Below, one piece after another: positions 21,487 through 26,229 of a stretch of DNA of 64,000 nucleotides (positions are counted from its first letter, which is position 1; every line of letters begins with the position of its first letter). The position numbers were made by a program, and so were the translations under genes. Origin of the DNA: Blastococcus sp. TML/M2B (GTDB lineage Bacteria > Actinomycetota > Actinomycetes > Mycobacteriales > Geodermatophilaceae); the NCBI RefSeq assembly GCF_016612865.1, contig NZ_JAENZZ010000001.1, positions 1,488,001-1,552,000 on the forward strand, given 5' to 3'. The notes beneath the pieces were generated by a model. The model saw only the letters and a list, made by a program, of their open reading frames with translations, was not told where the DNA came from and searched no databases.

Positions 21487-22277
21487 AGGGCGTGCGGCTC
21501 ACCCACGTCGGCGGGCCCACCGTCCTGATCGAGACCGGCGGCTGGCGGCTGCTGGTCGATCCCACCTTCGACGCCCCCGGCCGCAGGTACGCCTTCGGCT
21601 GGGGGACGTCCTCCCGGAAGGTGGCGGGGCCGGCCCTCCCGGTCGAGCAGGTCCTCCCCGTCGACGCCGTCCTGCTCAGCCACGACCACCACGCCGACAA
21701 CCTCGACGACGCGGGCCGGGCGCTGCTGCCCTCGGCGGGCGCCGTCCTCACCACCCGGCCGGGCGCCGCCCGGCTGGGGAACGGCGCCCGCGGGCTGCAC
21801 CCCTGGGAGACCACCGAGCTCGAGGCGCCCGGCCGGCCGGCCCTGCGGGTCACCGCGACACCGGCCCGGCACGGCCCGCCGCTCAGCCGCCCGGTCGCCG
21901 GGCACGTCATCGGCTTCGCGCTGGAGTGGCCCGGCCAGGAGGACGGCGTGCTGTGGATCTCCGGCGACACCGTGCTGTTCGGCGGCGTCCGGGCCGTCGT
22001 CGACCGGCTGCGGATCGACACCGCCCTGCTGCACCTGGGCGGCGTCCGCTTCCCGGTGACCGGCCCGCTCCGTTACTCCATGACCGCCCGCCAGGCGGTC
22101 GAGCTGGTGGCCCGGGGCGGGCTGCGGACCGTCGTCCCGGTGCACTACGAGGGCTGGTCGCACTTCCGCCAGGGCCGGGACGCCGTCGAGCGGGAGCTGG
22201 CGACCGCGCCGGCCGACGTGCGCGAGCGCGTCCGCTGGCTGCCGCTCGGGCGACCGGTCGAGCTGGTCAGCGGCTGA
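21483..22277 (+). CDS. MBL-fold metallo-hydrolase (UlaG-like)
   Basis: A 264-residue metallo-beta-lactamase-fold protein of the UlaG-like branch. The motif LLSHDHHADNLDD near residues 62-74 supplies the metal ligands, with further ligands in TPARHGPP, WISGDTVLF and VPVHYEGWSHF. The GTG start overlaps the preceding hydrolase stop by four bases, and its end overlaps the convergent ferredoxin-like gene by 11 bases. The reaction is not known; the pair with an alpha/beta hydrolase suggests sequential action on one compound, which is inference. Confidence 0.88.
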   Translation: MKGVRLTHVGGPTVLIETGGWRLLVDPTFDAPGRRYAFGWGTSSRKVAGPALPVEQVLPVDAVLLSHDHHADNLDDAGRALLPSAGAVLTTRPGAARLGNGARGLHPWETTELEAPGRPALRVTATPARHGPPLSRPVAGHVIGFALEWPGQEDGVLWISGDTVLFGGVRAVVDRLRIDTALLHLGGVRFPVTGPLRYSMTARQAVELVARGGLRTVVPVHYEGWSHFRQGRDAVERELATAPADVRERVRWLPLGRPVELVSG

Positions 22278-23184
22278 CCGACACCCGGTGCCAGGTGCGC
22301 ACCCGGCCCGGCCGGACCGCCGAGCAGGTCAGCGGCACCGCCTCGCCCGACGGGCGGCTCTCCACGACGACGGTGACCGTCCCGGCCGGGCCGGCCAGCG
22401 CCACCTCCCACCGCTCGGTGCCCGCCGCCGGATCGGGCAGCCGGGTGGCGCCCAGCGGGGCCAGGTCGTCGACGCCCAGCAGACCGAGCTCCTCCCGCGC
22501 GCCGTGCTGCGCGGCCTGCACGGGTGCGGCCAGGCCGGCCCGCCCGCGCAGCCACGCCAGCGCCACCTCGCCCTGCTCGTGCGCGGCCACCAGCAGCCCG
22601 CCGTCGCCGGGCACCTGCCCGTAGTAGAAGCCGTGGGGGAGGACGACGACGTTCGCGGCGAACCGGTCCCCGCCCAGGTGGCTGCACTCCCACACGTCCG
22701 CGGCGGGCATCGCGCGCGCCAGGGGCCGGCCGCGGAGCGCGCAGCACGCGTCGTGCCCGCCGTGCGTGCAGACCAGGTAGGTGGGCAGCGACGCCGGCTC
22801 GCCCACCGACCCGTCCCAGGGGGCGGTGAGCAGGTCGGCGTCCGACGTCCGCACCGACCACCACAGGCCCTCGCGGCCCGGGCGGCTGTCGGCGTACGCC
22901 CAGCGGCCGCCGGCGTCGGCCAGCCGATCGCCCGGGCGGCGCACCAGCAGGACGCGGACGTCCTCCCGCCGGGCCCGCTCCGCCAGCAGCGGGGCCACCT
23001 GCGCGTCGAAGCGGGACTGCAGCAGCGCGTCGCGCCCCCACGGTCCGGGCTGCTCCACCAGCAGCCACCGCTGCACGGGGGAGGCAGTGGCGATACCGGA
23101 GTCGCCCCGCGCCAGCGCCTGCACCGAGCAGCGCGCGGCGTCCAGCCGGCCGGGCGGGCGCGGCGGGAGGTCGGTGGCGGTCAC
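22267..23184 (-). CDS. Sucrase/ferredoxin-like protein (thioredoxin-like [2Fe-2S] family)
   Basis: A 305-residue member of the sucrase/ferredoxin-like family, which has a thioredoxin-like ferredoxin fold. The conserved Cys pairs are in LVCTHGGHDACCALRG near residue 135-150 and in WECSHLGGDRFAANVVVLPHGFYYG around 167-191. An [2Fe-2S] cluster and an electron-transfer role are likely from the family. The GTG at 23184 overlaps the stop of the cupin oxygenase gene by four bases, so it is the third gene of the GGAD-repeat operon and a natural candidate electron donor to that Fe(II) enzyme; that link is inference. Confidence 0.85.
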   Translation of the reverse strand: MTATDLPPRPPGRLDAARCSVQALARGDSGIATASPVQRWLLVEQPGPWGRDALLQSRFDAQVAPLLAERARREDVRVLLVRRPGDRLADAGGRWAYADSRPGREGLWWSVRTSDADLLTAPWDGSVGEPASLPTYLVCTHGGHDACCALRGRPLARAMPAADVWECSHLGGDRFAANVVVLPHGFYYGQVPGDGGLLVAAHEQGEVALAWLRGRAGLAAPVQAAQHGAREELGLLGVDDLAPLGATRLPDPAAGTERWEVALAGPAGTVTVVVESRPSGEAVPLTCSAVRPGRVRTWHRVSVSR

Positions 23185-24455
23185 GACCCGGGGACGGCGT
23201 CCGGGACGACCGCGACCGACTCGGTGACCAGCCGGCGGGCCAGGGTGATCCGGTCCTCGGGCGCCAGCCCGGGCAGGTCGCCCACCTTCAGCTCGCCGAC
23301 GGCGAGCAGTTCGGTCAGCGCGTCGCGCACCGAGCTCGGGAAGGTGTGCGTGCGCCGGCCGCCCACCAGCGTCACCCGGCCGTCGTCGCCGTCGCGCAGC
23401 GCGCAGCGCAGCCGCGGGCGCAGCCGGAGGACGGTGTCGGCGGTGAGCGCGGCCGCGGCGGTCGCCTGGGCCAGCGGGGCGACCGGCTCGGGCCGCACCT
23501 GCGCCCAGGTCCGGGCGCGCAGCTGCTCGGCGATCTCGTCGGGGTCCACCCGGCCCAGCCACTCCTGCAGCCCGGCGATCACCGTGGCGACGTGGTCGCG
23601 GATCGAGTCGGGGCGGGCGAGGTCCACCCCCAGCGGCAGCGAGCCGCGCAGCGCCGGGTCCTCGGCGGCCAGCGAGCGGAGCAGGTCCAGCGCCGCCTCG
23701 GCGGCGCCCCAGCGGGTGACGGAGTGCACGCCGATGGTCAGGTGCGCGCTGATCTCGCCGAGCGCGGTGGCCGAGTGCAGGAAGCCGCGGGGGAGGTAGA
23801 GGACGTCGCCCGGCTCGAGGACGGCATCGACGACCGGCTCGCGGGTGGCCGCGGCGGCGACGTCCTCGCGGCGGTCGGTCCACACCTGGGTGCGCAGCGG
23901 GTCGCGCAGCACCGGCTCGTGGATGGTCCAGTGCTTCTGGCCGGCCACCTGCAGCACGAAGACGTCGTGCACGTCGTAGTGCGGGTCGAACCCGCGCGAG
24001 GACGGCGGGGTGACGTAGGCGTTCACCTGGGTGGGGTGGCCCAGGTCGGCGGCGAGCTGGTCGGCGAACTCGATCAGCGGCGGCCACAGCCGGTGCAGGC
24101 CCTGCAGGACCACGGTGCTGCCCTCGGCGAACAGTCGCAGCACCGCGTCCGAGCTGACCTGGTCGGCGACCTCGGCACCGGCGCCTCCGGAGGTGGTGAA
24201 GCGCTTCGGGTCGACCACCTGCCCGTCCTTGGCGATGCGCAGGAACGGGGTGCGCAGCCCGCGGCGGGAGAGCAGCTCGTCGACCGCGGCCAGGTCGAGC
24301 AGGTCGGTGAAGGTGTTGCCGGTGTCCGCCGCGCGGGTCAGCAGCGGGTGCCGGCCCCAGTGCTCACGCGCGAAGACCTCCGGCTCGGTGTTCGTGCACC
24401 GCCGCAGGGCCGGGCGGAGCGGCTGCTCCGCCCGGCCCTGCGGGGCGGGGTCCAC
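23181..24455 (-). CDS. JmjC/ROX-type cupin oxygenase
   Basis: A 424-residue cupin of the ribosomal-oxygenase (ROX, YcfD/MINA53/NO66-like) branch of Fe(II)/2-oxoglutarate oxygenases. The iron-binding H-x-D is in FDPHYDVHDVFVLQVAG near residue 150-166 and the distal His in YLPRGFLHSATAL near residue 225; QKHWTIHEP follows as in YcfD. A C-terminal winged-helix-like part of about 180 residues completes the family layout. ROX enzymes hydroxylate Arg or His in ribosomal proteins; related FIH hydroxylates Asn, Asp and His in repeats. The frame is open far upstream, but the GTG at 24455 begins two bases after the stop of the GGAD-repeat gene. Its substrate may be that repeat protein; unproven. Confidence 0.83.
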   Translation of the reverse strand: MDPAPQGRAEQPLRPALRRCTNTEPEVFAREHWGRHPLLTRAADTGNTFTDLLDLAAVDELLSRRGLRTPFLRIAKDGQVVDPKRFTTSGGAGAEVADQVSSDAVLRLFAEGSTVVLQGLHRLWPPLIEFADQLAADLGHPTQVNAYVTPPSSRGFDPHYDVHDVFVLQVAGQKHWTIHEPVLRDPLRTQVWTDRREDVAAAATREPVVDAVLEPGDVLYLPRGFLHSATALGEISAHLTIGVHSVTRWGAAEAALDLLRSLAAEDPALRGSLPLGVDLARPDSIRDHVATVIAGLQEWLGRVDPDEIAEQLRARTWAQVRPEPVAPLAQATAAAALTADTVLRLRPRLRCALRDGDDGRVTLVGGRRTHTFPSSVRDALTELLAVGELKVGDLPGLAPEDRITLARRLVTESVAVVPDAVPGS

Positions 24456-24457
24456 GC

Positions 24458-24724
24458 TCAGGCCGAACCGTCCGCGCCGCCGTCGGCGCCACCGTCCGCG
24501 CCGCCATCGGCACCGCCGTCCGCGCCGCCATCGGCGCCGCCGTCGGCACCGCCGTCCGCGCCGCCATCGGCACCACCGTCCGCGCCGCCGTCGTGACCGC
24601 CCGGGGTGCCGGCCGCGCCGTGGTCGGCCGCGCCCGCGCTGCCGTCGGCCGGGCCGTGCGCGCCGCTGTCCGCGCCGCCGTCGGCACCGCCGTCGCCGCT
24701 GGTCATCTCGTCGTCCAGAGCCAT
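24458..24724 (-). CDS. 88-residue GGAD-repeat protein, possible modified-peptide precursor
   Basis: An 88-residue protein starting MALDDEMTSGDGG and ending in ten exact GGAD units and GSA. A first region of about 45 residues holds degenerate GGAD copies (DGGADGGADSGAHGPADG) and three His, at 23, 35 and 44. There is no Cys, Lys, Arg, Phe, Tyr, Trp, Ile, Val, Asn or Gln. The ATG at 24724 has GGAGGAG seven bases upstream, and the cupin oxygenase gene begins two bases after its stop, with the ferredoxin-like gene overlapping next. I know no family. The design (short acidic leader-like part, repetitive core, adjacent oxygenase and redox protein) suggests a ribosomally made, modified peptide or a repetitive substrate protein. 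That it is translated is supported by the start signal and tight coupling. Confidence 0.7.
   Translation of the reverse strand: MALDDEMTSGDGGADGGADSGAHGPADGSAGAADHGAAGTPGGHDGGADGGADGGADGGADGGADGGADGGADGGADGGADGGADGSA
24470..24592 (-). repeat. Tandem 12-bp repeats encoding GGAD
   Basis: Ten uninterrupted 12-base units in phase with the reading frame encode GGAD, plus a leading Asp codon. Within the units the Ala codon alternates between GCC and GCG and the Asp codon is GAC or GAT in a partly alternating way, so much of the array has a 24-base period, indicating growth by duplication of two-unit blocks. Confidence 0.9.
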
Positions 24725-24929
24725 GGGCTCCTCCGCTCGTCTCGGGTCGGGCCGCCGGACGGCGGCTCTCCAGGGCTGTCCTACCTCCCGCATCCTGGCC
24801 CCACACCTGGTGTCCCACCAGCGGGGACCGCGCCTCCGTCACAGCCCCCGTCGCGGCCCCCTCCCCAGCCCGCATCACGACTGGGACACGGACCCGCGCC
24901 GCGGCCGCGCCCACGGCCGTCCGGGCCGA

Positions 24930-24935
24930 TAGTGT
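24930..24935 (+). promoter_or_regulatory. Candidate -10 element of dinB (TAGTGT)
   Basis: TAGTGT fits TANNNT and would start transcription near 24942, just before the LexA box at 24947, leaving a short leader of about 37 bases that contains the box and the Shine-Dalgarno. Confidence 0.45.
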
Positions 24936-24946
24936 CTCCCCAGGGA

Positions 24947-24962
24947 TCGAACACGTGTTCGA
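24947..24962. promoter_or_regulatory. LexA SOS box upstream of dinB (perfect palindrome)
   Basis: TCGAACACGTGTTCGA is a full match to TCGAAC-N4-GTTCGA and is palindromic over all 16 bases. It lies 16 bases before the dinB GTG, directly after the candidate transcription start, so LexA would block initiation. Confidence 0.88.
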
Positions 24963-24978
24963 CAGGAGAGGGGGCGGC

Positions 24979-26229
24979 GTGACCGGGCGGGCGGAGGGGT
25001 GCACCGTGCTGCACGTCGACATGGACGCGTTCTTCGCCAGCGTCGAGGTCCGGCGCCACCCGGAGCTGGCCGGCACCCCGGTGATCGTCGGCGGGGCGGG
25101 CAACCGCGGGGTGGTCACCTCGGCCACGTACGAGGCGCGGCGGTACGGCGTGCACGCCGCCATGCCCACCGCCCGCGCGCTGCGGCTGTGCCCCACGGCG
25201 ACCGTGCTCCCCGGCGACCTGGCGCTCTACGGCGAGGTGTCCCGCTCGGTGATGGCGCTGTTCCGCTCGATCACCCCGCTGGTGGAGCCGCTCAGCATGG
25301 ACGAGGCATTCCTCGACGTCTCCGGGTCCGGCCGGCGGCTGGGCGACGCCGCGGAGATCGGGGAGTACCTGCGCGCCCGCGTCTTCGACGAGCAGGGGAT
25401 CACCTGCTCGGTCGGCGTGGCGAGCAGCAAGTTCGTCGCCAAGCTCGCCTCCACCTCCGCCAAGCCCGACGGGATGCGGATCGTCCGGCCGGCCGAGGTC
25501 ATGGACTTCCTGCACCCGCTGCCGGTCGGCGCGCTGTGGGGCGTGGGCCCCAAGACCGAGGAGCAGCTGCTGCGGCTCGGGCTGAAGACCGTCGGCGACC
25601 TCGCGCACGTCCCGGCCCGGACGCTGCAGCGGGCGCTGGGCCCGGCCGCGGGCGGCCACCTGCACGAGCTGGCCTGGGGGCGCGACCCGCGCCGGGTGGT
25701 CCCGGACGAGCCGGAGAAGTCGACCGGCCACGAGGAGACCTTCGGTACCGACGTCGACGACCCGGCGGTCATCCACCGCGAGCTGCTGCTGCTCGCCGAG
25801 CGGACGGCGGGCCGGCTGCGGTCGGGCGGCTGGCTGGCCCGCACGGTGAGCATCAAGGTGCGCTTCGCCGACTTCGCCACGATCACCCGCAGCCGCACCC
25901 TCGACGTCCCGACCGACGTCGGGCAGGAGCTCTACGACACCGCCCGAGCGCTGTTCGACGCGCTGGGCCTCGAGCGGGCCCGCATCCGGCTGGTCGGCGT
26001 GCGCGCGGAGCGGCTGGTGGAGGCCGGGTCGGCACCCCAGCAGCTGGAGCTCGGCGCCCGCGAGCACGGCCGGCGCGACGCCGAGCTCGCCGCCGACCGC
26101 GCCGCCCGCCGGTTCGGCGCGGGAGCCGTCCGACCGGCCACCCTGCTGCACCGCGACGGTCGCCCGGGACGGTCGGGAGGGGCCGCTGCGACCCGCCCGC
26201 GACCCCCCGCGCGATACCCGGAGGGGTGA
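24979..26229 (+). CDS. dinB: DNA polymerase IV (Y family)
   Basis: A 416-residue Y-family translesion polymerase. The palm begins at LHVDMDAFFASVE with catalytic Asp14, and the second acidic pair is in PLSMDEAFLDVSG (Asp-Glu near residues 110-111). YEARRYGVHAAMP (fingers), CSVGVASSKFVAKLAS (palm) and the helix-hairpin-helix WGVGPKTEEQLLRLGLKTVGDLA (thumb) follow, then the little-finger domain. The start is the GTG at 24979 behind AGGAGAGGGG. The perfect LexA box upstream shows SOS control; in M. tuberculosis the dinB genes are not reported to be LexA-controlled, so this differs. It diverges from the GGAD-repeat gene across 254 bases with no other feature. Confidence 0.93.
   Translation: MTGRAEGCTVLHVDMDAFFASVEVRRHPELAGTPVIVGGAGNRGVVTSATYEARRYGVHAAMPTARALRLCPTATVLPGDLALYGEVSRSVMALFRSITPLVEPLSMDEAFLDVSGSGRRLGDAAEIGEYLRARVFDEQGITCSVGVASSKFVAKLASTSAKPDGMRIVRPAEVMDFLHPLPVGALWGVGPKTEEQLLRLGLKTVGDLAHVPARTLQRALGPAAGGHLHELAWGRDPRRVVPDEPEKSTGHEETFGTDVDDPAVIHRELLLLAERTAGRLRSGGWLARTVSIKVRFADFATITRSRTLDVPTDVGQELYDTARALFDALGLERARIRLVGVRAERLVEAGSAPQQLELGAREHGRRDAELAADRAARRFGAGAVRPATLLHRDGRPGRSGGAAATRPRPPARYPEG

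Follow-up and report, generated by a model that had tools for sequence, protein, structure and literature searches.

The ROX enzymes NO66 (RIOX1), MINA53 (RIOX2) and YcfD (RoxA) are JmjC-type Fe(II)/2-oxoglutarate oxygenases, and their bacterial JmjC_2 relatives are usually regarded as ribosomal oxygenases. The residues modified by ROX and FIH enzymes are Arg, His, Asn or Asp; FIH, a cupin-fold oxygenase, hydroxylates residues including Asp in folded ankyrin repeats that are encoded elsewhere. Here we describe an operon in a 64,000-nucleotide stretch of the Blastococcus sp. TML/M2B genome (contig NZ_JAENZZ010000001.1, positions 1,488,001 to 1,552,000; hereafter the window), in which a ROX-type oxygenase is encoded with an Asp-repeat peptide of its own, its presumed substrate, and a ferredoxin-like protein, the latter being a frequent companion. 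The likeness to ROX proteins lies in the sequence family of the catalytic domain, the HxD...H site and the Lys of the GxK motif. With FIH the system shares the combination of a cupin-fold oxygenase and a repeat protein, but here the repeat is of low complexity and its gene belongs to the same operon. We propose that the three genes probably form a cassette resembling those for ribosomally synthesised and post-translationally modified peptides (RiPPs), in which a dedicated oxygenase would hydroxylate the repeated Asp residues with the help of the ferredoxin-like protein.

Related chemistry has been reported for RiPPs. As far as the available parts of the reports tell, BipG of the biphenomycin pathway is a JmjC-domain Fe(II)/2-oxoglutarate hydroxylase that acts on a ribosomal precursor (PMC12707348, PMC12257519). 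However, BipG is described as an ornithine hydroxylase from a many-enzyme cluster, whereas here a core made up of a long Asp repeat is accompanied by the JmjC enzyme and the Suc_Fer-like protein as the only widely shared modifiers. Beta-hydroxylation of Asp in ribosomal peptides is described for PesHI (PMC13060819) and, as told in PMC13097080, for SmaO/SmaX. In contrast to the window enzyme, PesHI is an MNIO and not a JmjC protein, and one Asp is given as its site in the available text. According to Bregman et al. (PMC12710340), fish and algae have fusions of JmjC (PF08007) proteins with leader-binding domains, and bacterial JmjC homologues occur in RiPP-like contexts; the available part of that paper holds no details of the present cassette. 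No description of it was found in the literature searched; a 2025 paper on macrocyclisation by a RiPP 2-oxoglutarate dioxygenase and the SmaO paper could overlap. The string GGADGGAD gave no literature match, and shorter repeat strings matched only papers with unrelated titles. As far as these searches go, the parts are of known kinds and their combination is undescribed.

The genes lie on the minus strand in the order 88-aa repeat peptide (24458..24724), 424-aa oxygenase (23181..24455) and 305-aa Suc_Fer-like protein of the thioredoxin-like-ferredoxin type (22267..23184). The peptide gene, recognised from its sequence and from upstream counterparts in relatives, has an ATG start preceded by a ribosome-binding-site-like GGAGGAG (24728..24734). 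The oxygenase begins with GTG two bases past the peptide stop, and the GTG of the third gene overlaps the oxygenase stop (GTGA). Re-reading the open reading frames (ORFs) of the window thus returned both the coordinates and the tight operon that had been claimed in the initial annotation, which was made from the DNA alone. Genome-wide, there is a single JmjC_2 match and a single Suc_Fer-like match, and both fall at this operon.

The peptide starts with the leader MALDDEMTS, ends in GSA and carries ten consecutive perfect GGAD units, with two further GGAD earlier in the chain. The ten units had been noted correctly in the initial annotation, but the accompanying description of a protein made only of small, acidic and His residues was too strict: in addition to 18 Asp, 1 Glu and 3 His it contains 2 Met, 1 Leu, 2 Pro and 2 Thr, while Lys, Arg and Cys are absent. 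Comparing the ten units pairwise gives 83 nucleotide differences, and every one sits at a third codon position; the repeat is therefore coding sequence and not a DNA artefact. The peptide had no Pfam or NCBIfam match at E values up to 1.

The oxygenase matches Pfam JmjC_2 with an E value of 6.2e-29 (100.5 bits against a curated cut-off of 22). The intact H-x-D...H iron site that had been proposed for this ROX-type cupin is borne out by alignment, with H159-x-D161 and H227 invariant in 15 of 15 sequences. K174, the Lys of GxK, is likewise invariant in all 15, and the iron triad and this Lys align with those of NO66; the conserved Lys of ROX and JmjC_2 enzymes has a role with 2-oxoglutarate. By hmmsearch the closest solved relatives are NO66 (1e-32) and MINA53 (2e-26), others including bacterial ROX proteins; the L16 arginine hydroxylase is reached at 3.2e-10. 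The C-terminal part, which in NO66 is a winged helix, is less clear, since one alignment to NO66 runs through it and another gives it just 0.4 bits. When excised, this domain had no match in Pfam. A PHROGs search returned unnamed families only, matched by the oxygenase.

The proposal that peptide and enzyme belong together was examined in relatives, in locus sets that overlap in genomes and whose hits were not pooled. The named loci are the best 80 of at least 575 relatives, picked on oxygenase score alone. A second set of 60 relatives contained the oxygenase in 48, a class sample in 133 of 394 genomes (E ≤ 0.001) and a phylum sample in 25 of 296 genomes (E ≤ 1e-60), 14 of the 25 outside the class. 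For loci with a strong match and enough upstream sequence, we asked for an ORF with at least two [AST]DGG motifs ending beside the oxygenase start. Such an ORF lies directly upstream in 74 of 74 named loci (6 of the 80 being set aside for short upstream sequence), in 44 of 47 loci of the 60-relative set (1 set aside) and in 59 of 63 of the class sample (2 set aside). The opposite strand had none at the same place, and only 8 of 6,079 other ORFs in the named loci passed, none of the 8 with more than two motifs. The initial annotation had held that relatives' cupins lacking a neighbouring repeat ORF would speak against the pairing; the named loci came out in its favour. Among the misses, four (L044, L045, L203 and L212; loci are cited by our own numbers) have other Asp-rich peptides instead, L048 has one motif match with the repeat nonetheless visible, and the other two, L206 and L208, carry a peptide that is not repetitive.

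A wider test, for a 40-residue stretch rich in Asp and small residues, was passed by 74 of 74 named loci, 47 of 49 loci of the 60-relative set and 60 of 62 of the class sample. It was also passed by 12 of 13 loci from other classes of the phylum, in which the peptides differ but are Asp-rich; L251 fails the rule though an Asp-rich ORF is visible, and L252 has no upstream sequence. Among the remaining ORFs of these loci, summed over the overlapping sets, only 4 of 11,503 passed. Peptides without an enzyme were sought with the pattern DGGADGxA in 388 genomes and read by eye, a search that other repeat types would escape. Genomes with at least three hits on one strand were either carriers of the oxygenase or 17 others without a high-scoring one; no orphan peptide was seen, since all 17 had scattered hits with at most two together. 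The pairing of peptide and oxygenase is thus strongly supported by genomics.

The peptides are far from uniform. Repeats in the window's clade consist of GGAD or of units like GEGPADGGANPGGHDGGADGSA; beyond it, cores are built of DGTDGDATDTTDGD, DADSTDADADSTD or GDADQGDSDSTQVDPQGTDPAG, with DGTDGDGTDGTDGDS, DADAADADASDADAS and TDTDTTDSTDTDTTD-like stretches as further types. One GGAD peptide (L081) has an insert, LIDKVRDKVRDVIGGDK, within the repeat. Across distant peptides the spacers vary while Asp stays, GGAD giving way to DGTD, DADA or TDTD. Leaders are alike across loci (DDDDMTT, DEDITT, EDEDIVTTW), also outside the class, and follow a short, acidic consensus of about M-[AS]-[LI]-[DN]-D-D-[DE]-[IM]-T-[TS]. 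In a maximum-likelihood tree of 76 hand-picked rows, with peptide labels set before tree building, peptide type tracked the oxygenase clades: the 5 groups need 6 changes, as compared with 29.9 on average for shuffled labels; the long-branch rows are unsure, and the group labelled as having no peptide seen includes other short ORFs (L046, L164, L165). The GGAD rows and two PELxGADL rows form one branch (100/95). The latter two come from L206 and L208, where the ORF upstream of the oxygenase lacks a repeat and has the ending DDPELxGADLxEDQ...GPTxEPGA.

Core composition bears on which residue is modified. Among 153 distinct GGAD-type peptides from 178 loci, His occurs in 130 cores and is absent from 23, Asn is present in 50 and absent from 103, and Arg is present in 35 and absent from 118. 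This disposes of His as the common target, one of the two sites named in the initial annotation. The other, Asp, fares better: of the four residues on which ROX and FIH enzymes act, His, Asn and Arg can be missing, and the cores of other clades are Asp-rich, so that Asp is likely to be the common site of modification. Ala precedes 1,643 of the 2,149 core Asp residues, and Gly follows 1,841 of them.

The third gene product matches Suc_Fer-like in Pfam above the family cut-off (E 2.1e-15); its best solved relative, at E 0.51, is not credible. Thioredoxin-like ferredoxins of the Apd1/Aim32 type have the motif C-X8-C-X24-75-H-X-G-G-H, according to the available text of PMC11138216. The window protein keeps C139-x8-C148 and H169-x-G-G, but the full motif was not found in it: 20 residues separate the second Cys from the His, as against 24-75. 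The last place of the motif, which is His in the yeast proteins, is never His in the 27 aligned rows, 24 of which have Asp there and 3 Cys. A Suc_Fer gene lies downstream in 65 of the 80 named loci and on the same strand in 12 of the 14 loci outside the class, so that it is a common and not an obligatory partner.

A second JmjC_2 clade (L166, L167, L169, L171, L180 and L217-L219) is preceded by a conserved peptide of about 35 aa, MDPxEVEVEDLxEVTSRDxTAGGDxDGTDSSSDFI. Four of its 8 loci have a FhuF_C [2Fe-2S]-type protein downstream, in one case 2 kb away; the Pfam match is short (E 7.6e-6). The presence of two unrelated Fe-S-type families, Suc_Fer and FhuF, beside related oxygenases suggests that these partners serve in electron supply.

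The DNA just past the peptide gene forms a perfect 19-bp stem with a 4-nt loop (24402..24443, minus strand), inside the 5' end of the oxygenase ORF. The fold of 24395-24450 has a free energy of -55.9 kcal/mol (z -7.48), and 0 of 200 shuffled sequences were equally stable. In 56 of 74 named loci the 90 nt past the peptide stop are among the most stable 10% of the locus (about 7 expected), and in 48 of 74 among the most stable 5% (about 4 expected). Stem sequences differ between genera, and there was no Rfam match in 22200-25100. We propose that the stem-loop is an attenuator or mRNA stabiliser, a role that would fit the production of much more precursor than enzyme.

These results suggest a model in which the product of the small gene is a precursor peptide, its short acidic leader being followed by a polymeric core whose Asp residues are spaced by small ones. 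A JmjC Fe(II)/2-oxoglutarate oxygenase of the NO66/MINA53/YcfD type would be dedicated to this peptide, which is very probably its substrate. The enzyme would oxidise the repeated Asp, most simply by beta-hydroxylation at multiple sites, and on balance we favour beta-hydroxy-Asp as the product. A [2Fe-2S] cluster is probably present in the Suc_Fer-like protein, which may keep the oxygenase iron reduced; the stem-loop probably lifts peptide over enzyme. As for the final product, we guess that it stays in or on the cell as a poly-hydroxy-Asp peptide with a metal-binding or protective function. As in RiPP systems, a short precursor gene, identified by position only, lies beside the enzyme and combines a conserved leader with a variable repeated core. 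More tentatively, and with somewhat less confidence than an even bet would need, the cassette may represent a phylum-wide RiPP-like class in which a [2Fe-2S]-fed ROX-type oxygenase makes metal-binding poly-beta-hydroxy-aspartate peptides, with cores that vary while Asp and leader stay.

Several observations weigh against this model or restrict it. The operon, the coding repeats, the pairing across the phylum, the intact iron site and the stem-loop in most loci are read from the DNA; all support is genomic, chemistry and purpose being inferred from it, and Gly or Ala could be the site instead of Asp. That all 153 cores contain Asp is in part a consequence of the selection, since peptides were chosen by a motif that contains D, and the figure carries no weight alone. 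L206 and L208 belong to the GGAD clade and have a non-repeat peptide, and L162 (261.7 bits, class sample) shows no peptide. Among lower-scoring JmjC_2 loci, 20 of 25 lack an Asp-rich ORF by the wider test; since just 5 pass, the pairing characterises this branch and does not extend to JmjC_2 genes at large. Suc_Fer was not found in 15 of the 80 named loci, namely all 11 from Micromonospora, Paractinoplanes, Mangrovihabitans and Verrucosispora, together with L088, L096, L115 and L067, the last with only 134 nt of downstream sequence. A PqqD-like leader-binding domain (RiPP recognition element) in the oxygenase C-terminus was considered but not supported (hhalign probability 0.4% against 9 PqqD-type sequences). 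Finally, no protease or exporter/transporter family is common to the neighbourhoods of 24 loci from different genera or lineages, and we therefore file the cassette as RiPP-like and not as a RiPP.

The oxygenase might act on the peptide and yield something other than hydroxy-Asp, such as a cross-link, oxidised Gly or Ala, or oxidative cleavage, with Suc_Fer as an active redox partner. RiPP 2-oxoglutarate oxygenases are reported for macrocyclisation and backbone cleavage, as far as the available parts of those sources go, and Gly and Ala each occur in 153 of 153 cores. However, the exchange of spacers around a retained Asp in distant peptides points to Asp, and the best solved relatives are named hydroxylases; we consider such a product unlikely, though worth keeping in mind. 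That the oxygenase is an ordinary ribosomal-protein hydroxylase beside an independent acidic disordered protectant or metal binder would agree with its sequence family and with the lone JmjC_2 match in the genome. It is nevertheless improbable, given that the pairing holds over the phylum while other neighbours change, that peptide type agrees with enzyme clade and that orphan peptides were not found.

The richness of the repeats in Gly and Asp also brings to mind an RTX-like calcium-binding polymer that the oxygenase merely tunes. The RTX calcium-binding repeat is a nonapeptide, GGxGxDxUx, with a hydrophobic residue. This motif, as generally written, does not occur in the window peptide, whose units have no hydrophobic residue; the 24 loci have no secretion genes in common, and together with the lack of a Pfam or NCBIfam match this makes an RTX-like role very improbable. 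As for the ORF being a low-complexity artefact of GC-rich DNA, the codons for G, A and D are indeed GC-rich and a 12-nt tandem repeat was detected. Such an origin is at odds with the confinement of unit differences to third positions, the rarity of passing control ORFs, and the similar leader and same gene place in relatives, and we regard it as refuted.

The surroundings of the operon vary. A dinB-like DNA polymerase IV gene (24979-26229) is divergent from it in the window. Of the 80 named loci, 33 have dinB as the divergent neighbour, and every one of these belongs to the Geodermatophilaceae block L052-L087 (one of them labelled 'UNVERIFIED_ORG: Bacillus sp. AZ43'). It is found in 0 of 44 other named loci, 4 of which have less than 200 nt upstream, with the cassette still intact; dinB was accordingly rejected as a member of the system. 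Across the 24 loci, the families that recur are those of the oxygenase, of the repeat peptide and, in 18 of 24, of the Suc_Fer protein. Another two recurrent ORF groups were discarded, one being the repeat peptide itself (10 genera) and the other antisense frames plus dinB (Geodermatophilaceae, 14 genera). Elsewhere, L046:2562-10330 has an 88-aa precursor-like ORF ending in STGCISNPSGPSC, followed by a gene for a fusion of JmjC_2 with 2OG-FeII_Oxy_3 and then by genes for a radical SAM protein and a TfuA-YcaO fusion; the region resembles a RiPP cluster of the thioamide type that includes a ROX-like enzyme. In L164:3116-6533 a JmjC_2 gene is followed by an ABC transporter, and the short ORF upstream ends DPDPSDDCWIVCNPNYCY.

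If the model is correct, a large number of actinomycetotal JmjC_2 enzymes would be dedicated to an encoded polymer peptide, and many orphan oxygenases would gain a testable substrate. Multi-site modified peptides of encoded length would also be on offer. To our knowledge, the partners of bacterial Suc_Fer ferredoxins are mostly unknown, and the cassette would provide these proteins with a natural role.

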